Source: Actinomycetes bacterium
GTDB taxonomy: Bacteria > Actinomycetota > Actinomycetes > Mycobacteriales > Mycobacteriaceae
Length of the DNA stretch: 23,869 nt
Direction: 5' to 3'
Assembly (NCBI GenBank): GCA_023388385.1
Contig: JAEWGK010000143.1
Coordinates: 1 to 23,869 of the forward strand
Shown here one piece after another: positions 8,026 through 23,869 of this stretch (within the stretch, counting starts at the first letter, position 1; every line of letters starts with the position of its first letter). Both the position numbers and the translations under genes were made by a program. Under the pieces are notes generated by a model. It was not told where the DNA came from and did not search any database. It was given only the letters and a program-made list of their open reading frames with translations.

Positions 8026-8032
8026 GCCCCGG

Positions 8033-8038
8033 AGTCTA
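8033..8038 (-). promoter_or_regulatory. -10 element for leaderless tsaD
   Basis: TAGACT on the minus strand ends 7 nt before the tsaD ATG, the leaderless spacing. The -35 region (about 8056-8061) is poor. There is no Shine-Dalgarno sequence beyond a weak CGGGG. Confidence 0.5.
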
Positions 8039-8125
8039 CGGCGGCGCTCGGCAGGCCTCGAACGGCGGCCGCCCACCTGGCGACCAGCCCCCCTCCCGAA
8101 CAGATGGGGGCCCGCGCACACTCCG

Positions 8126-8154
8126 TGGACGCCAAGGTGAGGCGGTGCTAACCT
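8126..8154 (+). promoter_or_regulatory. Promoter of the ABC transporter/TetR module
   Basis: TGGACG (-35, 8126-8131), a 17-bp spacer, then an extended -10, TGC-TAACCT (hexamer 8149-8154). The ATG at 8162 follows after exactly 7 nt and has no Shine-Dalgarno sequence, so the message is probably leaderless. It lies back to back with the tsaD promoter. Confidence 0.6.
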
Positions 8155-8161
8155 CCCAATC

Positions 8162-9997: not shown

Positions 9998-11733
9998 GGG
10001 GATTCATCCGTTCCTACGAGGCGATGCTCGGCCGCCGCTCCGGGCTGCGCGGGCTCATCGCCATCTTCACCACCTCCGCCGTGCTGCAGGGGCTCACCAT
10101 CCTGTTGCTCGTGCCGGTGCTGCGGGAGCTGCTCGCCGACGGCGGCGGCTTCCCCGCCGGCTGGTTCGCCGCGATGACGGTCTGCGGCGTCTCGTCGCTG
10201 CTGCTGTTCGGCTACGGCAGCCAGCGGGCCTACCTGGTCTGCATGAACGATCTGTTCGACGCGACGTCGCGAGTGGGGCGGACCGTCGTGAGGCTCCCGC
10301 TGGGCTGGTTCCACGCCGGCTCCTCCGCGCAGGTCAACCGCGCGGCGCTGGCGGACTGCGACGACCTGTCGCATATCGCGCCGATCGTGCTGCCCAACGT
10401 CGTCACGGCGATCGCCGGCCCCGCGACCGTCGTCGCCGGCATGCTGCTGCTGGAGTGGCGCATGGCGGTGCCCCTCATCGTGGTGATGCCGGCGATGTGG
10501 CTCATCGGCCGGTGGGGCGACCGCGTCTCCGCCGAGGTGGCGCACGCCGAGAAGGAGTCGGACCAGCAGGTCTCGGCGGCCGTGCTGGAGTTCGCGTCGC
10601 TGCAGCCGGTGCTGCGCGCCGCCGGGGGCGACCGCGGCCTCGGCCGCGTCGAGGGCGCCGTCCAGGCCGACCATCGCGCCACCCGCACGGCGCTGGACCG
10701 CAAGAGCGCGCCGATCGGCGCGTTCGTTCTGGTCACGCAGATCTCCGCGGTCGTCGCGCTCGCCGTCGGCGGGCACGTGGCCCTCGGCGGGGAGATGGAC
10801 GTGCCGCTGTACCTGGCGATGGCCGCGTTCTGCATCCGCTTCACCGAGCCGGTGGCCATGCTGCAGAGCTTCATGACGGAGTTCGCCGGCGGCCGCGACT
10901 CCATCGACCGCATCTCCGCGGTCGTCCTGGCCGAGCAGCTGCCCGAGCCCGTCGAGGACGCGGCGGCCGAGCCCGCCGACCACGGCGTCGCCCTGCACGA
11001 CGTCGTCTTCGGCTACGGCGACGGACCCGTCGTGCTCGACGGGGTGTCGGCGGAGTTCCCGCCCGGGACCGTCACCGCCCTGGTCGGCCCGTCGGGCTGC
11101 GGCAAGTCGACGATCCTGCGGCTCGTCGCGCGCTTCCACGACGTGCGCTCCGGCTCGGTCACCGTCGGCGGCCGCGACGTGCGCGACATCGGCACCCGCC
11201 GGCTGATGGACGACACCGCGATGGTGTTCCAGGACGTCTACCTGTTCGAGGGCACCATCGCCGACAACGTCCGCCTGGGCCGGCCGGACGCCACCGACGG
11301 GGAGCTGGAGGAGGCCGCCCGGCGGGCGCGCCTGGACGAGGTCGTCGCCCGCCTGCCCCGCGGCTGGGACACGCAGGTCGGCGAGGGCGGCGGGAGGCTG
11401 TCCGGCGGGGAGCGCCAGCGCGTCGCCATCGCCCGGGCGTTCCTCAAGGACTCGCCGATCCTGCTGCTCGACGAGATCACGTCGTCGCTCGACGGCGCCA
11501 ACGAGGCCGCCGTGACCGCAGCCATCCGCGACCTCGCCGAGGGCCGCACGACCATACTCATCGCCCACCGCCTGTCGACGGTAACCGGTGCCGACAACAT
11601 CATCGTGATGGACGCCGACGGCACCATCGCCGACCAGGGCACGCACGAGGAGCTCGCCGGCCGCTCCGGCATCTACGCGCGGTTCCTCGCCGACCAGCGG
11701 GCGGGCCACGACTGGACGCTCACGGGCGGGTGA
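9994..11733 (+). CDS. ABC transporter of exporter fold, subunit 2 (TMD-NBD half-transporter)
   Basis: The 579-aa protein starts inside the stop of the previous gene (ATGA overlap), so the two are translationally coupled. Membrane helices occupy about 20-300; RLPLGWFHAGSSAQVNR near residue 100 matches the same segment of subunit 1. The ATPase has Walker A GPSGCGKST from residue 365, signature LSGGERQR from 469, and Walker B LLLDEIT with D493 and E494. IAHRLSTV supplies the H-loop. Both ATP sites of the pair look competent. Length and pairing fit IrtB/YbtQ-like siderophore transporters, some of which import despite the exporter fold. Drug or peptide export is the alternative. No substrate-binding protein accompanies it. 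Confidence 0.85.
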   Translation: MRGFIRSYEAMLGRRSGLRGLIAIFTTSAVLQGLTILLLVPVLRELLADGGGFPAGWFAAMTVCGVSSLLLFGYGSQRAYLVCMNDLFDATSRVGRTVVRLPLGWFHAGSSAQVNRAALADCDDLSHIAPIVLPNVVTAIAGPATVVAGMLLLEWRMAVPLIVVMPAMWLIGRWGDRVSAEVAHAEKESDQQVSAAVLEFASLQPVLRAAGGDRGLGRVEGAVQADHRATRTALDRKSAPIGAFVLVTQISAVVALAVGGHVALGGEMDVPLYLAMAAFCIRFTEPVAMLQSFMTEFAGGRDSIDRISAVVLAEQLPEPVEDAAAEPADHGVALHDVVFGYGDGPVVLDGVSAEFPPGTVTALVGPSGCGKSTILRLVARFHDVRSGSVTVGGRDVRDIGTRRLMDDTAMVFQDVYLFEGTIADNVRLGRPDATDGELEEAARRARLDEVVARLPRGWDTQVGEGGGRLSGGERQRVAIARAFLKDSPILLLDEITSSLDGANEAAVTAAIRDLAEGRTTILIAHRLSTVTGADNIIVMDADGTIADQGTHEELAGRSGIYARFLADQRAGHDWTLTGG

Positions 11734-11829
11734 GCGGCGTGCGGGCGACCGTGTGGCGGCCTGCAAAGGATCAGGGACAGGCCAGGCCCATCACATGACG
11801 GACATCCACGAAGGCGACCCTGAGCTTCG

Positions 11830-11859
11830 TTGCCGCATGCGCGTGTGCGCACATACAGT
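11830..11859 (+). promoter_or_regulatory. tetR promoter with operator-like palindrome in the spacer
   Basis: TTGCCG (-35, 11830-11835), 18 bp, then TACAGT (-10, 11854-11859), with the GTG start exactly 7 nt further. The spacer contains the perfect palindrome TGTGCGCACA (11844-11853) inside a wider imperfect dyad, ATG-n-GCG-N4-CGC-n-CAT (11837-11854). A second dyad, ACAGT-N4-ACTGT, spans the -10 and the start codon (11855-11868). A regulator bound here would shut the promoter, so autorepression is likely. Confidence 0.55.
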
Positions 11860-11866
11860 AATGACT

Positions 11867-12589
11867 GTGCCGAACTCCACCACCCCCGTGACGCGCCCCG
11901 ACGCGTCCCACCCCCGGCGCATTGGCAAGCGCCCGGGGCCAAAGCCCACGTTCAGCCTGTCCGACGCCGTGCGCGCCGCGCTGGCCCTGGGCATCGACCG
12001 CTTCACGATGGGCGGCGTCGCGCGAGAACTCGGCGTCGCACCGTCCGCGCTCTACCGCGTGGTCCCCGACCGCGACGCCCTCATCCGCGAGGCCCTGGCC
12101 TCCATCATCACCCACCACACGGCCCCGTCCCACGACCAGCCGTGGCAGGACCAGCTGCGCGAGCTCGCCGAAGGCACATGGGAGCTGCTTGACCAGCACC
12201 CGGGCCTCGCCGCCGTGGCGCTGACCACGCCTCAGGCGGAGGACGCCGCGACGGGCTTCCTCGCCGGCATCGTCGAGGGACTGGTCGGCGCCGGGCTCGA
12301 GCCGTCGGACGCGCTGTTCGCGGTCGACTTCGTCGTCGACACCGTCATGGTCAGCCACCTGGGCTACAGCGCCCGCGTCGACGCGGAGCAGGCCGCCGGG
12401 GAACCGAGGCACACGGACGCCGCCGACGCCGTCACCCCGCAGGACCTCTCCGCCCGCGCCGCCGCGCTGGCCGCGGGCACCGAAGCCTCCGAGGTCTTCG
12501 TCCCCGAGCGCGTCGCCACCACCCGCAGCTGGCTGGCCCGCAAGATCGAGCTCATCATCGGAGGCATCGAGGCCGGCCTGGCCCGCTGA
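11867..12589 (+). CDS. TetR-family transcriptional regulator
   Basis: The 240-aa protein has a basic N-terminus (HPRRIGKRPGPKP), then a TetR DNA-binding domain at about 25-70 whose helix-turn-helix reads FTMGGVARELGVAPSALYRV. A ligand-binding C-terminal domain of about 150 residues follows, with no family-specific motif I recognise. The GTG at 11867 is chosen because a -10 hexamer ends 7 nt before it; in-frame ATGs at 11753 and 11861 are alternatives. The gene follows the ABC pair on the same strand by 133 nt and has its own promoter with an operator-like palindrome. It probably represses itself and perhaps the transporter in response to a transported ligand. It converges on rimI with 31 nt between. 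Confidence 0.86.
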   Translation: MPNSTTPVTRPDASHPRRIGKRPGPKPTFSLSDAVRAALALGIDRFTMGGVARELGVAPSALYRVVPDRDALIREALASIITHHTAPSHDQPWQDQLRELAEGTWELLDQHPGLAAVALTTPQAEDAATGFLAGIVEGLVGAGLEPSDALFAVDFVVDTVMVSHLGYSARVDAEQAAGEPRHTDAADAVTPQDLSARAAALAAGTEASEVFVPERVATTRSWLARKIELIIGGIEAGLAR

Positions 12590-12620: not shown

Positions 12621-13103
12621 CTAGTCCGCGGCGCCCGGGGCCGGGCGGACCATCGTCCACGCGTCGGCGCCGTCGGCGTAGTAGCGGCGGCGCACGCCCA
12701 TCCGGCCGAAGCCGAGGGACTCGTATAACGCGATCGCCGGGGCGTTGTCCGTGCGGACCTCGAGGAACACTGGGCCCGGGTCCTCGTCGGCGGCGGCGAG
12801 CAGCGCCTCCGTCAGGCGGCGGCCAAGCCCCCGTCCGCGCAGCTCCGGGGCGACGGCGACGGTGAGGATCTCGTACTCCGCATCACCCGCGGGCCCGGCC
12901 TTGCCCAGCCCCGCGTACGCGACGACGCGCTCCCGGTCCGTGCCCGGCTCCTCGACCTCCCCGACGTACAACCGGTGGGGCGACGACAGCTCGGCGCGGA
13001 AGGACTCCTCGCTCCACGGCCCATCGCCGTCGAAGATGACGGCCTCCAGCTCCGCGCACGACGCCGCCGCACCCGGCCACAGCCGGCCGAACGTCACGGC
13101 CAC
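12621..13103 (-). CDS. rimI: Ribosomal-protein-alanine N-acetyltransferase RimI (GNAT)
   Basis: The 160-aa GNAT-fold enzyme has the acetyl-CoA loop ELRGRGLGRRL at about residues 87-97, preceded by the beta-4 strand YEILTVAVAP. The C-terminal block NAPAIALYESLGFGRMGVR(R)YY is typical of RimI, which acetylates the N-terminus of S18 and other proteins. The start is the GTG at 13103, overlapping the tsaB stop by 10 nt, so it belongs to the tsaE-tsaB-rimI operon. In the reference order tsaD would come next; here the transcript runs into the convergent tetR. Confidence 0.93.
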   Translation of the reverse strand: MAVTFGRLWPGAAASCAELEAVIFDGDGPWSEESFRAELSSPHRLYVGEVEEPGTDRERVVAYAGLGKAGPAGDAEYEILTVAVAPELRGRGLGRRLTEALLAAADEDPGPVFLEVRTDNAPAIALYESLGFGRMGVRRRYYADGADAWTMVRPAPGAAD

Positions 13104-13849
13104 ACCCCCGGCACGCCGGCCGGATCGGGCAGCGCCGCCGACCGTGGGCGCGGCTTCGGAGGCATGGCGTCGGGACGGCGCAGGTACCGCGCCACCAGCG
13201 GCTCCGGCGCCGCCCCCAGGTCGGCGCGGGCGGCCAGCAGCGCCGGGTCGGGGCGGCGGGCGACGACGTCCGCGCCCGACTCCCCCGCCACGCGGGCGCC
13301 GAGATCCGCATCGCCGACGATGAGCGAGGGGACGGGGAGGCCGGCGTCGTCAAGCTCGGCGAGCACGGCGCCAGGGGCGAGCACCGCCGGACCCCACACG
13401 CGGGCGCCGGCGCGGTAGGCGGCCGTGTAGACCTCGCGACGGCGGGCGTCGGTGACGGCGAGGACGACGGGGGCGTCGGCGACCGCGGCCGGGTCGCCGG
13501 AGACGGCGGAGGGGTCGGCGGCGGGGGTCTGCACCAGCGAGTCGAGGGAGCAGACTCCGTGGACGGGGATGCCCAGGGCGTCGCCGAACGCCGCAGCCGT
13601 CGCCATGCCGACGCGCAGGCCGGTGAAGGGGCCGGGGCCGTCGCCGGCGACCACGGCGCCCAGGTCGCGGCGGGCGACGCCGGCCTCCTCGAGACATTCG
13701 AGGATGAGGGGCACGAGGGCCTCGTTATGCGCCCGGGCATCGACGTGGCCCCGCATGGCCAGCGTCCGCGGCGCCCCGCCCCCGTCGGGCACGTCCACGA
13801 TTCCGGCGGTGACCTGCGGTGTCGAGGTATCGACGACGAGAACGAGCAT
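13094..13849 (-). CDS. tsaB: t6A-tRNA biosynthesis protein TsaB
   Basis: The 251-aa actin-fold partner of TsaD dimerises with it and scaffolds the complex that makes t6A37 in tRNA. It begins MLVLVVDTSTPQVTAG and has the diagnostic GDGPGPFTGLRVGMATA near residue 75, then VLAVTDARRREVYTA. I chose the ATG at 13849 because TsaB proteins start directly with this strand and AGGATGG lies 5 nt upstream. The ATG at 13858 (three residues longer) would sit one base past the tsaE stop and is also possible. It is the second gene of the operon. Confidence 0.94.
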   Translation of the reverse strand: MLVLVVDTSTPQVTAGIVDVPDGGGAPRTLAMRGHVDARAHNEALVPLILECLEEAGVARRDLGAVVAGDGPGPFTGLRVGMATAAAFGDALGIPVHGVCSLDSLVQTPAADPSAVSGDPAAVADAPVVLAVTDARRREVYTAAYRAGARVWGPAVLAPGAVLAELDDAGLPVPSLIVGDADLGARVAGESGADVVARRPDPALLAARADLGAAPEPLVARYLRRPDAMPPKPRPRSAALPDPAGVPGVWP

Positions 13850-13859
13850 GGCCGCCATC

Positions 13860-14381
13860 CTACGCGGCGGGCCCGCGCGCCCCACCCGGGCCGTCGTCTG
13901 GTCCCCCGCCCGGGCCGGACCAGCGCCACGTCACGACGCGCGACCCGTCGTCCGCCGTCCTGTCGATGGAGACCAGCAGATGCCGGTCCGACAACTGCTC
14001 GGCGACGCCTCCTCCCCATTCCGCGACGACGACGCAGTCCCCGAGGTCCGTGTCCAGGTCCAGCGAGTCGAGGTTCGCCAACAGGTCGCCGCCCATGTCC
14101 AGCAACCGGTACAGGTCAGCGTGAACCAGGCGGGCGCCGCCCGGCCGGTTGGGCCGGTGTTCGCGAGCGATGGTGAACGTCGGCGACGTCACCCGCCCGC
14201 GCACGTCCATGCCGCGGGCGATGCCCTGCGCCAGGGTCGTCTTGCCCGCGCCGAGGGGACCGTCGAGGATCACCAGGTCGCCGGGACCGAGGGTGGCGCC
14301 AAGCTCCTGGCCGAAGGCCCGCATGTCCTCGGCGGCGGGAATGGTGCGCGAGCCGGCTGGGGGCCACGGTGCGGTGCTCAT
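13860..14381 (-). CDS. tsaE: t6A-tRNA biosynthesis ATPase TsaE
   Basis: The 173-aa P-loop ATPase drives turnover of the TsaBD complex. Walker A GPLGAGKTT is at residues 41-49, followed by TSPTFTIAREH and HADLYRLLD, both hallmarks of TsaE, and VVVAEWGGG. A Gly/Pro/Asp-rich tail follows. The start ATG at 14381 lies exactly 7 nt after a TACCCT -10 hexamer and has no ribosome site, so it is probably leaderless. The longer frame to 14471 is not supported. It is the first gene of tsaE-tsaB-rimI. Its upstream side borders the RiPP-like cluster, where base composition changes. Confidence 0.94.
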   Translation of the reverse strand: MSTAPWPPAGSRTIPAAEDMRAFGQELGATLGPGDLVILDGPLGAGKTTLAQGIARGMDVRGRVTSPTFTIAREHRPNRPGGARLVHADLYRLLDMGGDLLANLDSLDLDTDLGDCVVVAEWGGGVAEQLSDRHLLVSIDRTADDGSRVVTWRWSGPGGGPDDGPGGARGPAA

Positions 14382-14388
14382 GGAGTAC

Positions 14389-14394
14389 AGGGTA
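14389..14394 (-). promoter_or_regulatory. -10 element for leaderless tsaE operon
   Basis: On the minus strand TACCCT ends 7 nt before the tsaE ATG. The matching -35 position reads GTCTCC, which is poor. Confidence 0.5.
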
Positions 14395-14652
14395 GTGGCG
14401 CGCACGGCGGTGGAGACGGGGGCCGGACCCATCGCGACGGTGCCGTCACCATGACACCGGCGACGGGGCACCCGGTCACGTCATCGCCGCGCCACCCCCG
14501 GCACGTACCCCATTTTCCGTGATCGCGAACAATCCGCACCGTCCGCCACTTCCACGTCATGGGTTCATGCATGCAGAAATCTTCACACCCAGCGCGTTTC
14601 CATGTCTGCTTGACTGCACATATCAACCCAGGAGAACGTTTCTGCATTTTTC
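14395..14652. other. Divergent spacer between tsaE and the RiPP-like cluster
   Basis: No gene is recognisable here. GC content falls from left to right, with an AT-rich run near 14570-14660. A 9-bp inverted repeat ATGCAGAAA / TTTCTGCAT lies at 14571-14579 and 14639-14647, 59 nt apart, and an 8-bp palindrome TGCATGCA lies just before it. TTGACT at 14610-14615 looks like a -35 but has no -10 at 17 bp. A minus-strand open frame across this stretch (14378-14671) has no family resemblance and is rejected. Confidence 0.5.
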
Positions 14653-14681
14653 TTGCCATTAGGGTAGCCACGCCTTATGCT
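14653..14681 (+). promoter_or_regulatory. Promoter of the RiPP-like/metal-uptake operon
   Basis: TTGCCA (-35, 14653-14658) matches the consensus in five of six bases. It is separated by exactly 17 bp from TATGCT (-10, 14676-14681). Transcription would start near 14688, giving a precursor-gene leader of about 90 nt. The spacer is occupied end to end by the DtxR box. Confidence 0.65.
14659..14677. promoter_or_regulatory. DtxR (iron repressor) box
   Basis: TTAGGGTAGCCACGCCTTA matches the 19-bp DtxR consensus TTAGGTTAGCCTAACCTAA at 14 positions, including the full TTAGG and TAGCC of the left arm and CCT of the right. It fills the spacer between the -35 and -10 elements. Fe-loaded DtxR would therefore exclude polymerase and the operon would come on in iron shortage. 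This is the strongest direct link between the cluster and metal supply. Confidence 0.75.
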
Positions 14682-14687
14682 GAATGA

Positions 14688-14704
14688 GCCGCCGCGTCGG
14701 CGGC
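14688..14704 (+). other. 5'-end hairpin of the operon transcript
   Basis: GCCGCCG-CGT-CGGCGGC is a perfect 7-bp stem at the predicted transcription start. It could protect the 5' end of the peptide message. Position relative to the promoter is the only support. Confidence 0.4.
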
Positions 14705-14778
14705 AGGGCCACCACACGCCGTGGAAGCCTTCACCCCAACGCATGCGACCATCGCGCCACTGCAGCAAGGAGACAACC

Positions 14779-14889
14779 ATGCAGGACATCACCGTCACCG
14801 AAATCATCGACTCGCTCGACGTCGACGAGATCATCGCCCCGCACTGCCACCACCCCGTGGCCACCTCGTCCGGTTTCGCCTGGGCCTGA
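14779..14889 (+). CDS. RiPP precursor peptide candidate (azoline/metallophore type)
   Basis: A 36-aa peptide is encoded directly before a YcaO gene. The first 20 residues are acidic with alternating hydrophobics (DITVTEIIDSLDVDEII), as expected for a leader that a RiPP recognition element grips. The last 16, PHCHHPVATSSGFAWA, hold Cys23, Thr29, Ser30 and Ser31, which a cyclodehydratase could turn into thiazoline/oxazolines, together with His22, His24 and His25. The ATG at 14779 is preceded by AAGGAG six nt upstream. The in-frame ATG at 14677 overlaps the predicted -10 and is upstream of the predicted transcription start, so it is not used. A perfect hairpin follows the stop by 19 nt. The cleavage point and real modifications are unknown, and no family name fits. 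Confidence 0.72.
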   Translation: MQDITVTEIIDSLDVDEIIAPHCHHPVATSSGFAWA

Positions 14890-14908
14890 TCCATCCGAAC
14901 CGCGGCCA

Positions 14909-14944
14909 GGAGCGCCGCCCCGTTCCACATCGGGGCGGCGCTCC
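14909..14944 (+). terminator. Intra-operon attenuator hairpin
   Basis: A perfect 14-bp stem (GGAGCGCCGCCCCG with its complement) and 8-nt loop TTCCACAT lies between the precursor gene and ycaO, with no T-tract. Such hairpins are known after RiPP precursor genes (for example after sagA), where they let most transcripts end early so that peptide outnumbers enzyme. Its right arm ends 19 nt before the ycaO ATG, so it may also affect ycaO translation. Confidence 0.75.
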
Positions 14945-14963
14945 CCCGCGAACGCACGACGAC

Positions 14964-17156
14964 ATGACCACCCTGGCCCGACCATTCGAGCTGCGTTCCT
15001 ATGACGCGGACTCCAGCTTCGCCATCACCGCAGAAGGAAAAGCACTCCGACTCGACACCCCAGTGTCCACGCCAACGTTGACGAAACTTGCAGAACAAAC
15101 ACGCTCAACGTTCCGATACTGCACCTCCGGATCCTTCGGAAGCACCACGGGTACCGATTCCGGTGTCGCACAGCTCCTTCTCCACCGCGCACGGCGCCTG
15201 CACTCCGCTATCGACGCCCCACGACGATCCTTCACCACCGACCGCGCCATCGTCGTCGGCGATTCACGCATCAGGAACCTGACCCTGTCTGCGCTCGCAA
15301 GCCTCCACCCTGAGAACCAGGTACTCGACGCAGGAGCCGATCCCATCATCGGCGCCAATCTCGCCGGGCGGGACGGTGTCCTCATCGTATGCCGCGACCG
15401 TGCCGTCGACGCTCGCGACGTTGCCCTATGCCGACATGCCGAAGACATGCGGGTTCCCTACCTCCTCATCACGAGGCTGGCGAACCGCCTGTGGATCGGC
15501 CCAATGCACGTAGCACCATCGGATGCCCGAACGCGCGACGCACATGAACGCAGAATTGCAGCGTCTCACGACGCCGCCGTCGCCCACGCACTCAGCGCAC
15601 CTGCGGCGATGGGCTCAGCCTGGCCCGAAGACGACCACCTGGAGTCGGCGATCACGGTCGGACTGCGCCTAACCGACGAGACTCCCCCGCACCTGGGAAT
15701 CCACGAGCTTCGACGGGACGGGGGCTACTCCTTCCATCCGGTGTTGCCGCTGACCGAGAGCGATGCCGTCATCCGAACATGCCGGACCGAGGGATTCACT
15801 CCGGCGCCGGACACCCTTGTCGACGACCAGACGGGGATCATCAGGGCGGAACACCCGGTGACGCATACCCCACCGACCCCCCGCGAATTGACGACACACC
15901 AGGCCCGGGTCAGCCAGTTGTCGGCGGTTACCGACGGGACGAACAGCATCTTCTGCCAGGGTTCCACCTTGTCCGACCCCGGTCGGGCGAAAGCGGGCGC
16001 CATCGGCGAGTCCATCGAACGGTACTGCGGCAACCGCATCGACGCCGCCGATCCCATCTACCGCAGCTGGCGGGAACTCAACGTCACCGGGTTGCCCGCC
16101 GTGCATCCGGATGAGTTCGTCCTTTTCGCTGAGGAGCAGTACTCCGCTCCCGGATTCCCCTTTCAGCGCTTCACCGAGGACTCCGTCATCCACTGGGTCT
16201 GGGGCCACGACCTGGTGCGCCGGAGTGCCGTCCTGGTCCCCGCCCCCGCCGTGTACGTCAACTGGCATACGGGACCCTACGCCTGCGACACCCCGATCAT
16301 GCCACAGGCCTTCGCCGGGATTGCCGCGGGAAGCACGGCCGACATGGCCATCTCCGGTGCCATCGAAGAGATCTTCGAGCGCCACGCAACGATGGTGTGG
16401 TGGTTGTCCGGAACGCCGCTGCCACGACTGCGCAGTGCGGATCTGCCCCATGGTGCCGGCCAACGCGTCGCCGCCTTCCCTATACCGAACACCCTCGATG
16501 CGACCGTCATGGCCGTGGCGTTGCACGATGACGACCGGGACCTGGTCAATATCGGATTCAGCTGTCATGCCCACGCAAAGGAGGCACTACGCAAGGCATG
16601 GACGGAGGCCCACACCCTGCAGGAAGGTTCCAGGGATCTTCTCAATCCAGATAATCTCCACTTCAGGAGCATCAACGCGGGATTGCTTCCACCTAGTTCC
16701 CTCAAACCTCATCGAACCGACCGGAAATACCTCGACGACTTCCGGGACGACTTCCACGACGTGGACAGCCTGTTCGCACAACAGCAGATCTACCTCGATC
16801 CGCGGATACGAGAACGGGTGTCCCATCTCCTTGACCCAGAAGAGATCCTCCCGGACGATCCGCTTGAATCAGAGACAGAATCCTCGGTAGAGCCATCGAA
16901 GATCATCGAAAAAGCGCTGTCGACTTTGACAGCGAGAGGACTACGCGCAATCGATATCGACCTGACTACCTCCGACGCGGCGATCGCAGGATACCACGTC
17001 CACCGGGTCGTCGTCCCAGGCCTCATCGGAAACTCAAGTGCCGCGTTTCCACTGCTCGGAAGGTCAGCAGTATCGGACGAGGCAATCCGTCTCGGATGGA
17101 TTCGAGATCCTATGACATTTTCCGAGATCAACTTTGTCCCGATGCCACACGCATAG
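14964..17156 (+). CDS. Fused E1-like/YcaO cyclodehydratase
   Basis: The 730-aa protein is probably a one-chain azoline-forming cyclodehydratase. The N-terminal 80 residues (SSFAITAEGKALRLDTPVST) resemble the leader-binding winged-helix of TOMM C proteins. About 90-230 resembles an E1/ThiF-like domain (VVGDSRIRNLTLSAL; YLLITRLANRLWIGPMHV) but lacks the zinc-binding CxxC pairs. About 300-730 is YcaO: GESIERYCGNR with E349, E352 and R353; AIEEIFERHATMVWW with E469, E472 and R473; and AWTEAHTLQ with E548 and Q553 near the usual ATP/Mg ligands. The end, NFVPMPHA, recalls the Pro-rich C-terminus needed for cyclodehydration. The ATG at 14964 lacks a strong ribosome site. GC is low: 31 of 60 bases at 16681-16740. 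No dehydrogenase gene follows, so azolines are expected, not azoles. Confidence 0.85.
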   Translation: MTTLARPFELRSYDADSSFAITAEGKALRLDTPVSTPTLTKLAEQTRSTFRYCTSGSFGSTTGTDSGVAQLLLHRARRLHSAIDAPRRSFTTDRAIVVGDSRIRNLTLSALASLHPENQVLDAGADPIIGANLAGRDGVLIVCRDRAVDARDVALCRHAEDMRVPYLLITRLANRLWIGPMHVAPSDARTRDAHERRIAASHDAAVAHALSAPAAMGSAWPEDDHLESAITVGLRLTDETPPHLGIHELRRDGGYSFHPVLPLTESDAVIRTCRTEGFTPAPDTLVDDQTGIIRAEHPVTHTPPTPRELTTHQARVSQLSAVTDGTNSIFCQGSTLSDPGRAKAGAIGESIERYCGNRIDAADPIYRSWRELNVTGLPAVHPDEFVLFAEEQYSAPGFPFQRFTEDSVIHWVWGHDLVRRSAVLVPAPAVYVNWHTGPYACDTPIMPQAFAGIAAGSTADMAISGAIEEIFERHATMVWWLSGTPLPRLRSADLPHGAGQRVAAFPIPNTLDATVMAVALHDDDRDLVNIGFSCHAHAKEALRKAWTEAHTLQEGSRDLLNPDNLHFRSINAGLLPPSSLKPHRTDRKYLDDFRDDFHDVDSLFAQQQIYLDPRIRERVSHLLDPEEILPDDPLESETESSVEPSKIIEKALSTLTARGLRAIDIDLTTSDAAIAGYHVHRVVVPGLIGNSSAAFPLLGRSAVSDEAIRLGWIRDPMTFSEINFVPMPHA

Positions 17157-17234
17157 ACGATATTGACGCGGACACCCCATTTCCGTTGGACTTTCCGCCC
17201 ACCCCACTCAACCACCCCAAGGAAGGGAGGAGCC

Positions 17235-19094
17235 GTGCCCACACCGTCCGAGGAGCCGGCCACGCAGCCGCATCCCGAACTCAAGCGATTCCCCCAGATC
17301 GCAGTCCTCAGGCTCGCCGGAATCGGCCCCGCCCGATACGCCCTGACACTCGCGGTCGGATTGCTCCTGTCGGCGAACTTCATCGCCACCGCCATGCTCA
17401 ATTCGACGATCTTCTCCGAGCTGCTAGGCGCCCGCGACCACGGGAAACTCACGGGGCTCATCATCGCCCTCGCCATCGTGCTCGCCATCCGACCGCTTCT
17501 GGCGATGCTCAGGGAATGGGCCAGCGCCCGCCTTGGGCTGACCATGAAGATCACCCTCCGGGATCGGATAGCCCAGTCCATTGCCCGGCGCGGGCCCATG
17601 CGGCTGTCGCGGCACAATTCCGGTGACCTGCAGACGTTGATGACGGACGGCGTCGAGCAGACCCAGACCTATTACGGCGGTTACATCCCGCAAATCGTCA
17701 TTTGCGCGGTCACGAGCGTCTTCGTCGCCGGCTGGCTGGCCCAGTACTCCGTGCTCATAGCGGTGGTTCAGTTCATCCTGGCGATCATCGTCTTCGCGGT
17801 GCCCCGGCTCTGGGACAAGGCACTGGCCGAAAAGGGTCAGACCCACTGGATCGCCTACGCGGATCTGAACTCCGAGTTCATCGACTCGATGATGGGCATG
17901 ACGACGCTAAAGGCGTTCAATGCGGCCGAACGCCGGGGCCGCCAGCTCGCCCGGCGCTCCGCCCACCTGCTCGACTCCACGCTCAACCAGCTGAAGCTGT
18001 CACTGGGCGAGACGGGCGTGTCCGCCGCCATCATGGTCCTCGGCCCCGCCATCGGGCTCGCTCTCGGCCTCCATTCGGCGTCCCGCGGCGAAATCGCGAT
18101 GTCCGACCTGTTCATGATCACGCTGCTGTCCGCGGAAATCTTCCGCCCGCTGCGCGAACTCGCCAACCTGTGGCACGCGGGCTTCATGGGCCTGGCGGCG
18201 TCACGGGAAATCGAATCCTTCCTCAGCCAGGACCCGACGCATCCCGGCGGGCCGGAGAATCGCCCCGGCCGGGACTCCGGGCGCACCGCCGCCACGTCCG
18301 GCGACGTCATCGAGCCCGCCGACGCCACCACCGCAATCGCCCTCGACGGCGTCGGGTACACCTACGACGGGTCCGACGGGGCCGCCCTCACCTCCATCAC
18401 CGCCCGCATCGCGACGGGGGAAACGACCGCCATCGTCGGCGGTTCGGGTTCGGGCAAATCCACGCTGCTGGGGCTCATCCTCGGCATGGACGCGCCCACG
18501 ACCGGAACCATCGCGGTCCTCGGCCGGGATCCCCGCGGCCCCCACGCGCTCGATCCGGTGACCATGGTGCCGCAGGACCCGATGATCTTCCCCGGCACCA
18601 TCGCCTCCGCCCTGCGCGACGGCGCCCCGGACGCGGACGAGGCCACGATGCTCCATGCCCTGGAGCTCGCCGGCCTGTCGAGCATCGGCGACGTCTCCGG
18701 CCGGGCGCTCCTCGACGTCACCGTCGACGAGCGTGGCGGCAACCTCTCCGGAGGCCAGCGCCAGCGGCTGGCGATCGCCCGGGCGATCGTCTCCCGTCCG
18801 GCGATCGTCATCCTCGACGAGTCCACCTCCGCGCTCGATTCCGCGGTGGAACGACGGATCCTCGCCCGGCTCCGGTCCGACATGCCCGGCACCACCCTCA
18901 TCATGGTCACCCACCGCATGGACACGGCGGCCGACTGCGATCACGTCCTCGTCATCGAACGCGGCCGGCTCACGGAGGCCGGCCCACCGGGCGAGCTCCT
19001 GGAACGGCCCGGCGGCACGTTCGCCCGGCTCATGACCGAATCCAGCGCATCACTGGGCGCGTCGACCGCGCCCGGGGAAGGAGGGCGGCGATGA
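17235..19094 (+). CDS. CydD-like ABC transporter half (TMD-NBD)
   Basis: The 619-aa protein has about six membrane helices (30-310) and an ATPase domain (about 365-600). The segment NSGDLQTLMTDGVEQTQTYY ending GGYIPQ matches the GVE...Y.PQ pattern of CydD-type half-transporters, as does ADLNSEFIDSMMGMTTLKAF. Walker A GGSGSGKS is at 402-409, signature LSGGQ at 504-508, and Walker B ILDEST with D528 and E529. The start is the GTG at 17235 with GGGAGGAG just upstream; the ATG at 17163 would put that site inside the gene. It lies 78 nt after ycaO and its stop overlaps the next start (ATGA). It probably exports the modified peptide with its partner. CydDC itself moves thiols or haem, so those are alternatives. 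Confidence 0.85.
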   Translation: MPTPSEEPATQPHPELKRFPQIAVLRLAGIGPARYALTLAVGLLLSANFIATAMLNSTIFSELLGARDHGKLTGLIIALAIVLAIRPLLAMLREWASARLGLTMKITLRDRIAQSIARRGPMRLSRHNSGDLQTLMTDGVEQTQTYYGGYIPQIVICAVTSVFVAGWLAQYSVLIAVVQFILAIIVFAVPRLWDKALAEKGQTHWIAYADLNSEFIDSMMGMTTLKAFNAAERRGRQLARRSAHLLDSTLNQLKLSLGETGVSAAIMVLGPAIGLALGLHSASRGEIAMSDLFMITLLSAEIFRPLRELANLWHAGFMGLAASREIESFLSQDPTHPGGPENRPGRDSGRTAATSGDVIEPADATTAIALDGVGYTYDGSDGAALTSITARIATGETTAIVGGSGSGKSTLLGLILGMDAPTTGTIAVLGRDPRGPHALDPVTMVPQDPMIFPGTIASALRDGAPDADEATMLHALELAGLSSIGDVSGRALLDVTVDERGGNLSGGQRQRLAIARAIVSRPAIVILDESTSALDSAVERRILARLRSDMPGTTLIMVTHRMDTAADCDHVLVIERGRLTEAGPPGELLERPGGTFARLMTESSASLGASTAPGEGGRR

Positions 19095-20860
19095 CCGCAC
19101 CCGAACGGCTCCCCATCCGCCGCGCCATCGCCGACGTCCTCGGCCTGATGTCCGGGCTGAGGGGCTTCCGGAGGCTGTTCCTGTGGTCGCTCGGCGCGAT
19201 GTTCGGGGCCCAGATGCTCCTGGTCCTCCTCACCGCCGTGAGCGTCCACGTCTCCTCGCTCGTCATCAGCGGGACGATGGCCCCGTCCGACACGGTCGTC
19301 CCGGTGGCGATCATCATCGGGATGGCGGTCGCGCAGGGCTTCTTCTACCTCCTCGAATGCTGGTGGTCCCACGAACTCGCCTACCGCGTCCTCGCGTCCC
19401 TCCGCGTCGACATCTTCGCCGCCCTGCGCCGCATCGCGCCGAGGGGGCTGCAGCGCCGCCGCATCGGCGACGTCGCCTCCCGCTCGATGAGCGACGTCGA
19501 ACAGCTCGAGTGGTTCTACGCCCACACCGCGGCGACCGCAGTCAACGCGGTGGTCTGCTCCATCGTCCTGGTGGCCGTGAACTGGTGGTTCATGGGCCCC
19601 CTGGCGCTCATCCTCGTTCCGGGTCTCATGGCCCTCATCGTCTTCCCGATTCTGCTGCTGCCCTGGCAGCGCCGTCAGGGCGACCGGATGCGCATGACCC
19701 TGTCCGAGCTGAAGGTCCTGGCCCTCGACGGGATCCACGGGCTCCGGGAAATCCATGTCATGGGCCTCCACGACCGGCAGCGTAAGCGGATCCGCGAATC
19801 CGGCACCAGGGTCCAGAGGGCATTGGCCGCCTCGAACATGCGGAAGACCCTCGAAACCGGTTTCGCGGAATGGGTCACCGCCGCCATCCACGTCATCGTC
19901 CTCATCGTGCTCACCGCGAAGGTCCGCGACGGCGCATTCGACCCCGCCGTGCTGCCCGTGTCCGTCGTCCTCGCCGCGACGTCGTCCATTCCGGTCATCG
20001 GCCTCGTCACGATGCTCGGCCGGGCCGGGGAGGTCGGATCCTGCGCGGCCCGTGTCCAGGAGCTGCTCTCGGCGCCCGAGACCGTCCCGTCGCAACCGCA
20101 GCCGGGCGCCCCCGAGGGCCCGCGGGACGGATCGCTGCGCGCCGAATCCGTCTCCTTCCGGTACGAGCCCGGCGGCGCGGACGTGCTCCGCTCCATCGAC
20201 CTCACCGTCCCGAAGGGCAAGACGGTGGCCCTGTTCGGCCCGTCCGGGGTCGGCAAGTCGACGTTCGCCTTCCTCGCGCTGCGGTTCCTCGACCCCGTCG
20301 ACGGCGTCATGCGTTTCGACGGCGCCGACATGCGCACCGTCGTCCCGGATGTGCACAGGGAACGCGTCACGCTCCTCCCGCAGACCTCGTACATCTTCTC
20401 CGGCACCATCCGCGACAATCTCACGGTCGCCGCAGAGGACGCCGACGACGAGGCCCAGTGGCGGGCCCTGGACATGGCGGGCCTCGGCACGCTGGTCCGC
20501 GACCTCGGGGGGCTCGACGCCGTCGTCGGCGATCGCGGCACGACGCTGTCCGGCGGAGAACGGCAGCGCCTGGGCCTCGCCCGGGTGTTCCTCCGCGACT
20601 ACGACACGCTCATCCTCGACGAGCCCCTGGCCAACGTCGACCCCGAACTGGAGCACGTCATCATCACCGCCCTGCACGGGCACCGGGCGGGGAAGTCGAC
20701 GGTCATCATCGCCCACCGGCTCGCCTCCATCGCCGACGCCGACGTCATCCACGTCCTCGACGAGGGGCGGGTCATCGACTCCGGCACGCATGCGGAACTG
20801 GCCTCGCGCTGCGCCCCGTACCGGGAGGCGCTGCGGGCGCAGAGGGGGCTCATCCGATGA
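19091..20860 (+). CDS. CydC-like ABC transporter half (TMD-NBD)
   Basis: The 589-aa partner of the preceding CydD-like subunit is translationally coupled through an ATGA overlap. The membrane part (about 25-320) contains RRIGDVASRSMSDVEQLEWF, the R.GD...R...DV pattern of CydC. The ATPase has Walker A GPSGVGKST from residue 383, LSGGERQR from 486, and Walker B LILDEP with D510 and E511; the H-loop is IIAHRLASI. Both sites of the heterodimer look functional. Placed between a RiPP enzyme and an importer, export of the mature peptide is the simplest role. The stop again overlaps the next start. GC is back to the level of the rest of the window. Confidence 0.85.
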   Translation: MTAPERLPIRRAIADVLGLMSGLRGFRRLFLWSLGAMFGAQMLLVLLTAVSVHVSSLVISGTMAPSDTVVPVAIIIGMAVAQGFFYLLECWWSHELAYRVLASLRVDIFAALRRIAPRGLQRRRIGDVASRSMSDVEQLEWFYAHTAATAVNAVVCSIVLVAVNWWFMGPLALILVPGLMALIVFPILLLPWQRRQGDRMRMTLSELKVLALDGIHGLREIHVMGLHDRQRKRIRESGTRVQRALAASNMRKTLETGFAEWVTAAIHVIVLIVLTAKVRDGAFDPAVLPVSVVLAATSSIPVIGLVTMLGRAGEVGSCAARVQELLSAPETVPSQPQPGAPEGPRDGSLRAESVSFRYEPGGADVLRSIDLTVPKGKTVALFGPSGVGKSTFAFLALRFLDPVDGVMRFDGADMRTVVPDVHRERVTLLPQTSYIFSGTIRDNLTVAAEDADDEAQWRALDMAGLGTLVRDLGGLDAVVGDRGTTLSGGERQRLGLARVFLRDYDTLILDEPLANVDPELEHVIITALHGHRAGKSTVIIAHRLASIADADVIHVLDEGRVIDSGTHAELASRCAPYREALRAQRGLIR

Positions 20861-21894
20861 CGCCGCGCACCGCGTCGGCGACGCGGATCACCGCCCTCGC
20901 CGCGATCATTGTCATCGCGTTACTCGTCGGCGTCGGCTTCGGCGGCGTCCACGTCCCAGCCGCGGAGACGTTCGCCGCAATCCTGGCGAAGCTGGGGTTC
21001 GCCGGCGCCGATCCCGATCCCCGGATGTCGAACATCGTTATGGAATTGCGGCTGCCCAGGGTCGTCCTCGCGATGGCCGCCGGCGCTGGACTGTCCGTCT
21101 GCGGGCTCGCCACCCAGGCCATCCTCCGCAATCCCCTTGGCGACCCGTACCTCCTGGGCCTGTCCTCGGGCGCGTCGGCGGGCGCCGCCGCCGTCCTCGT
21201 CAGCGGCATCGGGGTGAGCCTCGTCGGCGCGCTCGGGGTCACCGGAGGCGCCTTCGTCGGGGCGATGGCGGCCATGGGCATGGTCATCGTGCTCTCCGGT
21301 CGGGGAAACGCCATCGAGCCCGGGCGCATCATCTTCGCGGGCATGGCCGCCAACTACTTCTTCTCCGCCATCACGAGCATCAGCATCGTCACGGCGAAGA
21401 ACCCCGCGGCGACGAAATCGGTAACGTTCTGGCTGCTCGGCAGCCTCAATGAGACGTCGTGGCGAGTCATCGGCCTCGTCGGACTCTCCGTCATCGTGGG
21501 GCTGACCCTGCTGTGGATCCTCGGCCGGCACATCGACGCCCTGCAGCTCGGCGATGATCCGGCCCGGTCCCTCGGCACCGACCCGGTCATCTACCGCGTC
21601 CTCATCCTCACCATCGTCGCCCTGCTCGTCGGCATCATCGTCTCGTTCACCGGGTCCATCGGCTTCCTCGGGCTCGTCATCCCCCACCTCGCTAAGAAGC
21701 TGACCGGCGGGATATTCCGGCACGCGATGCTGACGACGGCCCTCATCGGCGCGGCGGTGCTCATGGTCGCAGACCTGCTCTCCCGCGTCATCATCGCCCC
21801 GTCGGAGATCTCCGTCGGCATCCTCACCGCCCTGCTCGGCACGCCGATCCTCATGTTCATCCTCTCACGGCAGAACAGGGAGTCGTCGGAATGA
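20857..21894 (+). CDS. FecCD-family metal-chelate ABC permease
   Basis: The 345-aa, highly hydrophobic protein (about ten membrane helices) is of the BtuC/FhuB/FecCD type, which takes up iron-siderophores, haem or cobalamin. Typical family stretches: MELRLPRVVLAMAAGAGLSV, GLATQAILRNPLGDPYLLGL with SSGASAGAA after it, and near the end GFLGLVIPHLAKKLTGG, the loop that docks on the ATPase, and ISVGILTALLGTPIFM-like LLGTPILMFIL. The ATG at 20857 overlaps the CydC-like stop by 4 nt. With the lipoprotein and ATPase downstream it makes a complete type II importer. A single permease gene implies a homodimer. Confidence 0.93.
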   Translation: MTPRTASATRITALAAIIVIALLVGVGFGGVHVPAAETFAAILAKLGFAGADPDPRMSNIVMELRLPRVVLAMAAGAGLSVCGLATQAILRNPLGDPYLLGLSSGASAGAAAVLVSGIGVSLVGALGVTGGAFVGAMAAMGMVIVLSGRGNAIEPGRIIFAGMAANYFFSAITSISIVTAKNPAATKSVTFWLLGSLNETSWRVIGLVGLSVIVGLTLLWILGRHIDALQLGDDPARSLGTDPVIYRVLILTIVALLVGIIVSFTGSIGFLGLVIPHLAKKLTGGIFRHAMLTTALIGAAVLMVADLLSRVIIAPSEISVGILTALLGTPILMFILSRQNRESSE

Positions 21895-22031
21895 CCCATC
21901 ACCGGTCGGCCCCGTTTCCGTTCCAGCGGCCGCCCCCGCCCGACGCACGCCCCTCCACCGCGCCACCCCTTGACCCCGGCACTCCGAACCACCACACGAT
22001 CCCACTACTCCACGACAAGGAGCACAGCTCG

Positions 22032-23105
22032 ATGCGCACCGTCAGCATCCCGTCCATCACGGCCCCGGGCCGTCACCGCATCTCCGTCCCCGCACGGCTC
22101 GCCGCACTCGGCGCCGTCGTCGCCGTCACAGCACCCCTGGCGGTCGCCTGCGGGAGCTCGGATGACTCCGCCGCCCCCGGCAACCCCCGGGACGTGATCA
22201 TCGGGGATGACGGATCCATCACCTACACGACCTGCGGACACGAGATCCACATGGACAAGCACCCGGAGACGGTCATCTCCGCGGGCCTGGGCGGAATCAA
22301 CACGCTCGTCGCCGCCGGCGGCGCGGGCAAGGTCATCGGGCGCAGCTACGAATACGGGGAGCCGCCCAGCTCGATCACGAAGGGAAAGATCGAGAACATC
22401 GACGTGCTCTCCGACGAGGGACTCACCCCGGAGCAAGTGGTGAGCACGAACCCCGATTGGCTCTACGGCGAGTCCTTCGGCACTCAGGGGCTGTCGCCGG
22501 AGTGGATGATGGACCATGATGTCGCGTTCATGATCCCGGAATACGAGTGCTACAACTACTACCCCGACAAGCCGTACGTCGAGCCGACGATGGACGCGAT
22601 CATCGACGAAATCGGCCGCGTCGCCACGGTCCTCGGCACCGAGGAGGCGGCGCGGAGGGAAATCGACGATCTCACCGCGACCATCGACGAGGCGAAGAGG
22701 ATCGCCTCCACGGTTCCCACGCAGCGGGTCGCGGTCGTCTACTTCTTCGATGAGTCGAACGACTTCTTCAGCTACGGAGCCAAGGGCGTCCCCCAGGAGA
22801 TGCTCACCGCACTCGGCCACGAGAACGCCACCGATCCAAACTATTTCTACCATGACGGTCCGCTGTCGCCCGAGTCGTTCATCCAGTCCGACCCCGACAT
22901 CGTGATCGTGGCCACCGGGTCTTCCGGAGTCGATTTCGCGAGCTCCGTGGAACGCCTGAAGTCGATTCCCGGCATCGCCGACATGCGCGCCTTCAAGGAG
23001 AACCGCATCGCGGAGGCCCCGAACGCCGGGTTCTACGCGTCCGCCGAGTCGATCCCGGCCATGAAGACGGTCGCCGAGGCCATCGCGAAATACGGCGTGA
23101 AGTAG
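22032..23105 (+). CDS. Metal-chelate ABC transporter substrate-binding lipoprotein
   Basis: The 357-aa protein is of the FepB/FecB/BtuF class (periplasmic-binding fold type III). The signal peptide has a basic start (RHRIS, PAR), a hydrophobic core (LAALGAVVAVTAPLAV), and a lipid-attachable Cys40 in AVAC. The mature part begins with the ITYTTCGHEIHMDKHPETVI block typical of the family. Its two lobes contain SDEGLTPEQVVSTNPDWLYG and SPESFIQSDPDIVIVA. It would capture the metal-loaded ligand outside the membrane and hand it to the FecCD permease. The ATG at 22032 has AAGGAG about 6 nt upstream. An in-frame ATG at 21891, overlapping the permease stop, would put 47 Pro/His-rich residues before the signal peptide and is unlikely. 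Ligand unknown. Confidence 0.92.
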   Translation: MRTVSIPSITAPGRHRISVPARLAALGAVVAVTAPLAVACGSSDDSAAPGNPRDVIIGDDGSITYTTCGHEIHMDKHPETVISAGLGGINTLVAAGGAGKVIGRSYEYGEPPSSITKGKIENIDVLSDEGLTPEQVVSTNPDWLYGESFGTQGLSPEWMMDHDVAFMIPEYECYNYYPDKPYVEPTMDAIIDEIGRVATVLGTEEAARREIDDLTATIDEAKRIASTVPTQRVAVVYFFDESNDFFSYGAKGVPQEMLTALGHENATDPNYFYHDGPLSPESFIQSDPDIVIVATGSSGVDFASSVERLKSIPGIADMRAFKENRIAEAPNAGFYASAESIPAMKTVAEAIAKYGVK

Positions 23106-23124
23106 GAGGAAAGCGCAGGAGACC

Positions 23125-23869
23125 ATGGGCATCCTCAGCACCCTGACGGGGAAGATCCGCACCCACGACCCCGCAGATGATCCCGGCACCGCCGCGGAGT
23201 TCATCCGCGTCGAGGATCTCGTGGTCTCCTTCCGGGGGCGCCGCATCCTCGACGGAATCTCGATGTCCCTGCCCCATGGCAGGAGGATCGCCATCACCGG
23301 GCCCAACGGGTGCGGCAAGACGACCCTGCTGCGGTGCATCAGCGGGGCTCACGCACCGGATTCGGGGTCGATCCACGTCAACGGCCGCCCGCTCCGCGAC
23401 TACTCGGTTCCCCGGCTGTCCCGGGAGCTCGCCGTCGTCTCGCAGTTCGAGAACATGATCGACCAGGTCCGCGTCCTCGACATCGTCCTGCTGGGCTGCG
23501 GGGTCCGCCGGAGCAATCTCTCCGCGTTCACCGCCGAGGATCATGAGCGGGCGATGAAATGCCTGCGCACCGTCGGCCTCGGGGGATCCGAGGGGCGGAT
23601 CGCCAGCACGCTCTCGGGGGGTGAACGTCAGCGGGTCCTCGTCGCGCGTGCCCTCGCCCAGCGATCCCGCGGCATGCTCCTCGACGAACCGACGAACCAC
23701 CTCGACATGCGCTATCAGCATGAGGTTCTGCAGTGCATCGCCAGGGAGGTCGGCTCCCAGGTCGTGGTCCTCCACGACCTCAACATGGTGGCCCGCTACA
23801 GCGATATCGTCGTCATCCTCAACGAAGGCCGGATCGCCGCCATCGGGGATCCCGGAGAGGTGATGACTC
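23125..23869 (+). CDS. Metal-chelate ABC transporter ATPase (3' end missing)
   Basis: The FecE/FhuC-type ATPase is open to the right edge of the window (248 codons visible, no stop). Walker A GPNGCGKTT starts at residue 59, the Q-loop glutamine is in AVVSQFENM, the signature LSGGERQR starts at 163, and Walker B MLLDEPT has D187 and E188. THLD and the H-loop VVVLHDLNMV (H217) follow. It ends within GDPGEVM, normally close to the last 20 residues or so of the family. The ATG at 23125 has AGGAG 3 nt upstream and a stronger AGGAGGA further up; it lies 19 nt after the binding-protein stop. An N-terminal extension of about 30 residues precedes the usual domain start. Confidence 0.93.
   Translation, partial: MGILSTLTGKIRTHDPADDPGTAAEFIRVEDLVVSFRGRRILDGISMSLPHGRRIAITGPNGCGKTTLLRCISGAHAPDSGSIHVNGRPLRDYSVPRLSRELAVVSQFENMIDQVRVLDIVLLGCGVRRSNLSAFTAEDHERAMKCLRTVGLGGSEGRIASTLSGGERQRVLVARALAQRSRGMLLDEPTNHLDMRYQHEVLQCIAREVGSQVVVLHDLNMVARYSDIVVILNEGRIAAIGDPGEVMT

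Follow-up and report, generated by a model that had tools for sequence, protein, structure and literature searches.

The window analyzed here is a stretch of 23,869 nucleotides (assembly GCA_023388385.1, contig JAEWGK010000143.1). It carries an operon at positions 14779-23868, all on the forward strand, that encodes a short peptide, a fused E1-like/YcaO enzyme, a CydDC-like pair of ATP-binding cassette (ABC) half-transporters, a FecCD-family permease, a binding lipoprotein and an ATPase. This operon probably constitutes a ribosomal metallophore system of a Corynebacterium, in which a ribosomally synthesized and post-translationally modified peptide (RiPP) would be made, exported and recaptured. 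The genes, their conservation in related loci, the conserved core of the peptide, the predicted fold of the enzyme and the regulator-type boxes in the promoters were observed. An earlier reading of the same DNA, hereafter the original prediction, had proposed such an operon under iron control; its observation was confirmed and its interpretation partly supported. The features of the operon are as follows.

14653-14681, + strand: promoter-like site TTGCCA-17 bp-TATGCT, the sole one in 14390-15000
14659-14677, no strand assigned: DtxR/IdeR-like box TTAGGGTAGCCACGCCTTA, 14/19, filling the -35/-10 spacer
14779-14889, + strand: precursor peptide gene, 36 amino acids, ATG at 14779, TGA ending at 14889, AAGGAG before the start
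14909-14944, + strand: RNA hairpin between the peptide and YcaO genes, stem 14909-14922/14931-14944
14964-17156, + strand: predicted fused E1-like/YcaO cyclodehydratase, 730 amino acids (PF02624, TIGR03604, fold match)
17235-19094, + strand: CydD-like ABC half (PF00664 and PF00005; TIGR02857 327 bits, cut-off 435)
19091-20860, + strand: CydC-like ABC half (PF00664 and PF00005; TIGR02868 289 bits, cut-off 329)
20857-21894, + strand: FecCD-family permease (PF01032, E 6e-80)
22032-23105, + strand: metal-chelate binding lipoprotein (PF01497), in an open reading frame (ORF) that opens at 21891
23125-23868, + strand: importer ATPase (PF00005, E 1e-34), cut by the contig end

Conservation of the precursor peptide and its gene neighbourhood

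An alignment of YcaO sequences was scanned against the contigs of 84,980 species and yielded 27 loci (L numbers below), while a scan of the same collection with a single YcaO sequence gave no match. In 24 of the 27 YcaO-anchored loci the full complement of six protein genes occurs together with a homologous peptide gene, so that the predicted unit of peptide, YcaO, ABC pair and FecCD is indeed a conserved one. Contig ends cut L014 and L019 just upstream of YcaO. L025 (Gordonibacter) has a deviant peptide and, by tblastn, all genes but a recognisable substrate-binding protein (SBP), and one of its ORFs was grouped with SBPs in protein clustering. FecCD and its ATPase are present in each of the 25 uncut loci. 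YcaO loci without the importer, named beforehand as a finding that would speak against the idea, were therefore absent from this set; a wider set of 16 loci, whose YcaOs are more distant, gave a FecCD match in 15 cases (some partial) and none in L087, the association being counted only among loci found through window-related YcaOs. Relatives of the gene set are spread over many actinobacteria: a YcaO match at E ≤1e-60 was obtained in 35 of 394 sampled genomes of the class, and these supplied the 16 wider loci.

The 36-residue peptide gene noticed originally belongs to this family. A hidden Markov model (HMM) trained on 22 relatives but not on the window peptide (MQDITVTEIIDSLDVDEIIAPHCHHPVATSSGFAWA) ranked that peptide first among the six-frame stretches of the window (E 1.6e-10, runner-up 0.19). 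An alignment of 23 precursors shows no variation at P, F and W and hardly any at one His. Cores of bacteriocins usually diversify; here the core is kept although the YcaOs of those loci are only ~40% identical. The core-like tail of the window peptide past the conserved Pro, HCHHPVATSSGFAWA, has no ALV motif and follows the pattern P-HCHH...FAW of the window-type loci, with a Cys in the core of all 10 loci that carry a DtxR-type box.

The hairpin that follows the peptide gene was also confirmed, with a perfect stem of 14 bp, a minimum free energy of -45.2 kcal/mol and a z-score of -6.6. A role as terminator was rejected because no T-run is present. Of 28 loci examined, three had no peptide anchor; perfect repeats of at least 11 bp stand at the hairpin position in 10 of the 25 scored, window included, and are thus not universal.

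Two cases in the set stand out. The label of L022 (8116-15335) is Tissierella sp. Marseille-P2918 (Bacillota), but the locus very closely resembles those of Varibaculum: its S9 protein is 93% identical and its YcaO falls inside the Varibaculum branch. It may be a mislabelled genome, a contamination or a recent transfer. L014 and L020 both lie on Mobilicoccus massiliensis NZ_LN651329.1 in opposite orientation, with YcaOs at zero distance and a gene run identical in order over ~13 kb, which may reflect a real duplication or an assembly artefact.

The putative modifying enzyme and the transport proteins

The YcaO gene product matches PF02624 (E 3e-50) and is barely above the cut-off of TIGR03604 (223 bits vs 219). 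Residues E349/E352/R353 and E469/E472/R473, which we take to be ATP-binding, are invariant across 28 YcaO sequences. Pfam did not detect the E1-like half of the protein. An AlphaFold model (mean confidence, pLDDT, 81.7) could be aligned from end to end with LynD, MusD and TruD, whereas MccB, McbB-type and McbBCD chains gave weaker alignments; a sequence search returned the first three again, weakly and in the YcaO part. Identity with these three enzymes is about 16%. Since the fold match covers the full length where Pfam is silent, the model supports the predicted fusion of an E1-like domain to YcaO. In a plasmid search, the best YcaO match reached 32%. In 13 loci (L001-L007, L012-L015, L019 and L020), YcaO is followed by another YcaO-like protein. 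By eye, in the printed sequences, this additional protein has lost the EExxER motif and ends in PGW, and it is likely a dead partner subunit.

The predicted CydDC-like pair stood as regards the ABC domains found in both halves; neither half reaches the curated CydD and CydC cut-offs given above. Searching the PDB with the CydD-like sequence returned mainly eukaryotic ABC proteins and does not distinguish export from import. Likewise, of the complete importer originally described, FecCD, binding protein and ATPase are present, with a single permease gene up to the contig end, and the importer is only partly visible because the ATPase runs past that end. The lipoprotein most likely starts at 22032 and not at 21891, since the later start has its own AAGGAG and gives 357 amino acids, equal in length to both homologues listed; a VAC lipobox, read by eye, follows it. 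The protein weakly matches siderophore/heme binding proteins in the PDB, and a phage search gave no near match for its DNA. The tight gene packing seen at first holds for three ATGA overlaps (CydD/CydC, CydC/FecCD and FecCD/SBP ORF) and less so for the gaps of 74 bp (peptide-YcaO) and 78 bp (YcaO-CydD) and the revised lipoprotein start.

DtxR-type and Zur-type boxes in the promoters

The shared promoter of the window carries a predicted DtxR-type operator, as had been proposed. The box TTAGGGTAGCCACGCCTTA has the top DtxR score of the entire window against the 19-bp DtxR/IdeR consensus that we take as reference, and its 14/19 was reached by none of 100 dinucleotide shuffles; promoter-like sites in shuffled versions of 14390-15000 numbered 0.1 on average. 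The Zur-type score of the window, 10/15, was equalled in 50 of 100 shuffles and is not above chance.

This consensus and a 21-bp actinobacterial Zur consensus (PMC5472717) were then applied to 41 loci, a count that excludes L014, L019 and L025. The thresholds (14/19 for DtxR, 11/15 for Zur) and the promoter intervals were chosen manually once the scans had been made, dinucleotide-shuffled loci served as chance control (100 shuffles for the window, 20 for each later locus), and the near-copies L008, L010, L011 and L022 were counted singly although they represent one event. Each of the 10 window-type loci (nine Actinomycetaceae-type loci plus the window) has a DtxR-type box of at least 14/19 within the 300 bp that precede the peptide gene, and the promoters chosen for the 31 other loci contain none. 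Conversely, the chosen promoters hold a Zur-type box of at least 11/15 in 28 of these 31 loci and in two of the 10 window-type loci (L009 and L018). L003, L020 and L092 are below the Zur threshold, and L087 barely meets it, with a site over the peptide start. DtxR-type sites have a density of 0.57 per kb in promoters vs 0.002 elsewhere, where the 41 loci hold two, both in L016 and both before cluster genes; the densities of Zur-type sites are 1.58 vs 0.09 per kb. The iron regulation claimed for the operon thus fits the box of the window itself, and not the Zur-type boxes of the sister loci; iron is apparently not the signal that most of the family uses. Near the cluster of L002 (Brachybacterium tyrofermentans), a second FecCD importer (16182-18053) has its own Zur-type box (13/15, at 18033).

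A Zur-regulon pattern, TGATAAYVRTTNTCA (one mismatch allowed), was derived from the cluster promoters by a k-mer scan of 15 loci and searched in 12 host genomes, with a control of 0-1 matches per strand. Its sites lie at or just before genes for ZnuA (5 sites in 4 genomes), for CobW-type proteins (3), presumably a Zur-linked class, and for the ribosomal proteins L28 with L33, and L32; 8 of the 12 genomes have a site at such a gene. The follow-up covered 25 sites and a Pfam scan of 12 adjoining proteins picked by eye. Several further sites stand at genes without a nameable zinc link, and in L028 and L040 the longest reading frame that can be drawn overlaps the ZnuA site. In Streptomyces coelicolor, Zur is described to repress znuABC, rpmG/B and rpmF (PMC5472717). 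Given the Zur boxes of 28 of 31 loci and the same box at zinc-type genes of 8 of 12 genomes, the YcaO family is tied, through these predicted operators, to metal-starvation regulons.

In the YcaO tree (44 rows, 39 labelled, L003 and L092 being labelled Zur though under threshold), one change between DtxR and Zur labels suffices. L015 (Actinomyces gerencseriae, Actinomycetaceae) has an NSNHHGHV core and a Zur box, and follows its gene clade, not its taxonomy. Each of the window's five transport proteins scores higher against DtxR-box than Zur-box loci, with median bits of 389/243 for CydD, 417/268 for CydC, 219/142 for FecCD, 192/93 for SBP and 199/154 for the ATPase.

An IdeR-box search in the nine Actinomycetaceae-type genomes found sites at MptD-family energy-coupling factor (ECF) components, at one ZnuA-family protein (L109) and at a protein that matches MG2 only weakly; for three more sites no gene could be named. 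The counts, 1-4 per strand per genome, are weak because the reversed-pattern control gives 0-2. DtxR-type boxes before an MptD-family (Trep_Strep) ECF S component were noted in L099, L103, L112, L113, L114, L117 and L119, the family being assigned by a family search in L099, L112, L117 and L119 and by eye in the other three; this suggests a metal-linked substrate for the component.

Relationship with streptamidine-type clusters

The original prediction regarded the operon as a distinct system. This did not hold: the gene set had been published in 2021, with a split YcaO, as streptamidine-type (ami) clusters, which contain FecBCDE-like genes, a hydrolase, AmiB, a dehydrogenase and two ABC genes (PMC8442711). 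A profile search, tblastn and the YcaO tree all joined the window family to this type. By homology, the window system is thus a fused-YcaO relative of streptamidine clusters, for which a functional reading, new as far as the literature searched goes, is offered here, and its gene set is not a novelty on its own.

The 2021 survey deals with standalone YcaOs only, AmiB being a separate E1-like protein; streptamidine has the core HLSATH and an amidine as its characterised ring, and 22 peptides of the survey are without motifs A and B (PMC8442711). The azolines first expected for the window product are an assumption. Metal import was the first proposal of the streptamidine authors, followed later by a suggestion of signalling or development, and the compound inhibited neither bacteria nor fungi (PMC8442711). 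Deletion of the importer or of the hydrolase abolished streptamidine, and deletion of the ABC pair (amiT1-T2) lowered its amount (PMC8442711).

More distant loci, which link the family to STREPTAMIDINE, carry other candidate precursors, ending in ...APHNHAVTAASFHWS (L084 and L086, similar in L083), ...APQDPTTHALVQNPFAWDEEK (L088 and L089, similar in L091) or ...HLSATHSNALVENPFD (L094, L096 and L097, with HLSASH in L095). In L088-L098 the A1 match begins only at model positions 282-289. An HLSATH-type peptide was found in 13 of 40 genomes searched within one genus, and in 11 of these 13 a Zur site of at least 11/15 stands 131-156 bp upstream of the core. L132, among the 11, has a stop inside the peptide match; L120 scores 9/15; and L129 is outside the Zur scoring, the motif used having missed its peptide. 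The ami-type loci found here thus carry Zur-type boxes. The main text of PMC8442711 makes no mention of Zur, and a full-text literature search for YcaO with Zur returned matches unrelated by title.

Two tandem leader-core units were seen in the precursors of L090, L092, L094 and L120-L128; tandem motif copies are also described for streptamidine precursors (PMC8442711).

Proposed function and alternatives

We infer each chemical and transport step, as well as the identity of the metal, from these data. Upon metal starvation, most likely of iron because the box is of DtxR type, the repressor would leave the promoter. The leader of the precursor (I-x-V-x-E-I) would dock on the E1-like half of the enzyme, whose YcaO half would use ATP to form at least one backbone ring in the His/Cys-rich core, either a thiazoline formed from the PHCHH cysteine or an amidine. 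A protease would remove the leader by cutting close to the conserved Pro. Export would fall to the CydDC-like pair, the product would chelate metal outside the cell, and the lipoprotein/FecCD/ATPase importer would return the complex. An S9 prolyl-oligopeptidase-type gene accompanies the importer genes in 8 of the 9 DtxR-type Actinomycetaceae-type loci (not in L023), adjoins FecCD in L094-L096 and lies elsewhere within the locus in L097 and L025; such a peptidase could cut the leader or, equally, open the imported complex.

Several observations weigh against this proposal. The sole characterised relative, streptamidine, bound no metal, either in the chrome azurol S (CAS) assay or in liquid chromatography-mass spectrometry (LC-MS) with Fe, Co, Cu, Mg, Mn, Ni and Zn, and metal-starved cultures of its YcaO mutant showed no phenotype (PMC8442711), which speaks against the idea in its simple form. 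No leader-removing peptidase is visible up to the contig end. The window box, at 14/19, scores lower than the 15-18/19 of its relatives, and the other Actinomycetaceae DtxR-type boxes precede no clear iron genes, which leaves iron itself unconfirmed. In the tree, the branch joining the window to the DtxR clade has a support of only 74/88, and the window YcaO sits on a long branch, for which the program warns of long-branch joining; its median scores, 346 vs 347 bits, favour neither the DtxR nor the Zur group.

A broader reading would accommodate the streptamidine results, and we put it forward tentatively, as something rather less than an even chance: fused and streptamidine types would form one large actinobacterial YcaO-metallophore family that switched between Zur and DtxR. 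The core would change with the regulator, being NSNHHGH or NANNHGH for zinc and HCHH for iron, and streptamidine would be a spent fragment left after AmiF re-imports the loaded molecule and an S9-type enzyme cuts it. This would explain both its absent metal binding and the loss of product upon deletion of the importer or hydrolase.

Among the rival explanations, the one that survives best retains a metallophore and changes the metal, to zinc, manganese or a mixture, which we hold to be possible but rather unlikely for the window. His-rich cores suit Zn(II). The Zur-type boxes of the 28 sister loci and the DtxR-type site of L109 before a ZnuA-family protein point the same way, as does the promoter of the yersiniabactin-like sidA of Corynebacterium diphtheriae, which responds to DtxR and Zur (PMC6711530). 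Against this stand the Zur score of the window, at chance level, and the Cys shared by all 10 DtxR-type cores. The window box, moreover, fits the DtxR/IdeR consensus.

The product could instead be a signalling peptide of metal-starved cells, imported through FecCD for sensing. The conserved core and the view of the streptamidine authors, given no metal binding or inhibition, favour it (PMC8442711). Yet both metal-starvation regulons have been recruited, the importer is of the metal-chelate type, and no regulator family was common to most loci in the clustering, in which clusters outside the core set were only partly annotated; signalling therefore appears unlikely.

About equally improbable is that the CydDC-like pair acts as a second importer and not as an exporter. 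The lower output of amiT1-T2 deletion strains speaks against it (PMC8442711), as does the FecCD importer already present in all 25 uncut loci. On the other side are the scores of both halves under the CydD/CydC cut-offs. Moreover, IrtAB and YbtPQ use the ABC-exporter fold for siderophore import.

Finally, an antimicrobial RiPP (a bacteriocin or Trojan horse, with the importer as immunity or for uptake of a rival siderophore) would suit a SagD-type YcaO of TIGR03604, many azoline RiPPs being toxins or antibiotics, but the core strongly conserved across genera and the inactivity of streptamidine against bacteria and fungi make it highly improbable.

Host and genomic context of the operon

By its GuaB sequence the host of the window is a Corynebacterium: this protein shares 89% identity with C. 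sphenisci GuaB, its two closest matches reach 90-91%, and the organism-named matches among the 120 listed are all Corynebacterium bar one. Located 5' of the operon are guaB, an rsdA-like gene, a sigma-70 gene, groEL, groES, tsaD and tsaE. A second ABC-exporter pair with a TetR-type regulator (8162-12589, +) splits tsaD (6907-8172, -) from a tsaB-like gene (13094-13885, -) and, compared with the usual tsa gene order, interrupts the tsa run. An Rfam scan of the window returned nothing at gathering scores.

Comparison with known systems

Among the papers listed by the literature searches, in several cases the best-ranked ones only and with most subscription papers and preprints outside their reach, no YcaO-made metallophore and no Zur/DtxR control of such clusters was seen. 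The closest known systems are the streptamidine-type clusters, which share with the window a short precursor, a YcaO, an E1/RRE-type partner (RRE, RiPP recognition element), a FecBCDE-like importer and two ABC genes; an S9-type hydrolase is common to them and several related loci. They differ in that the E1-like domain of the window is fused to YcaO, whereas the streptamidine YcaO is standalone with a separate AmiB. The window also has the core HCHHPVATSSGFAWA without ALV, a DtxR-type rather than a Zur-type box, and one visible permease gene against the four importer genes amiF1-F4. Up to the contig end, which falls inside the operon, its proteins include no AmiC-type hydrolase or AmiE-type dehydrogenase. 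If the metallophore reading is true, the Zur-type boxes would give these widespread clusters, whose role was not known in the 2021 paper, a testable function.

LynD, TruD and MusD are fused heterocyclases like the window enzyme, alike over the full-length fold and weakly alike in the sequence of the YcaO part, but at only about 16% identity. LynD and TruD, which modify cyanobactin precursors, are not known to have a metal importer. Coelibactin of Streptomyces is a Zur-controlled nonribosomal peptide metallophore (PMC5472717), and sidAB of C. diphtheriae is a nonribosomal peptide synthetase/polyketide synthase pair under DtxR/Zur (PMC6711530). Both thus have the same two regulators as the window family, but neither is ribosomal. 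Methanobactin and the bufferins resemble our proposal in being ribosomal peptides with a backbone heterocycle and metal binding, the latter two features being proposed here for the window. They are made by MNIO/DUF692 enzymes (multinuclear non-heme iron-dependent oxidative enzymes), in contrast to the YcaO of the window, where a Pfam scan of the operon proteins gave no DUF692 match, and they are linked to copper, while the window family carries iron- or zinc-type regulator boxes. All RiPP metallophores that we know of are MNIO-made and copper-linked. If true, a family of YcaO products controlled by iron and zinc repressors would represent a second RiPP-metallophore chemistry beside theirs, with a chelator encoded by a gene and therefore easily edited.

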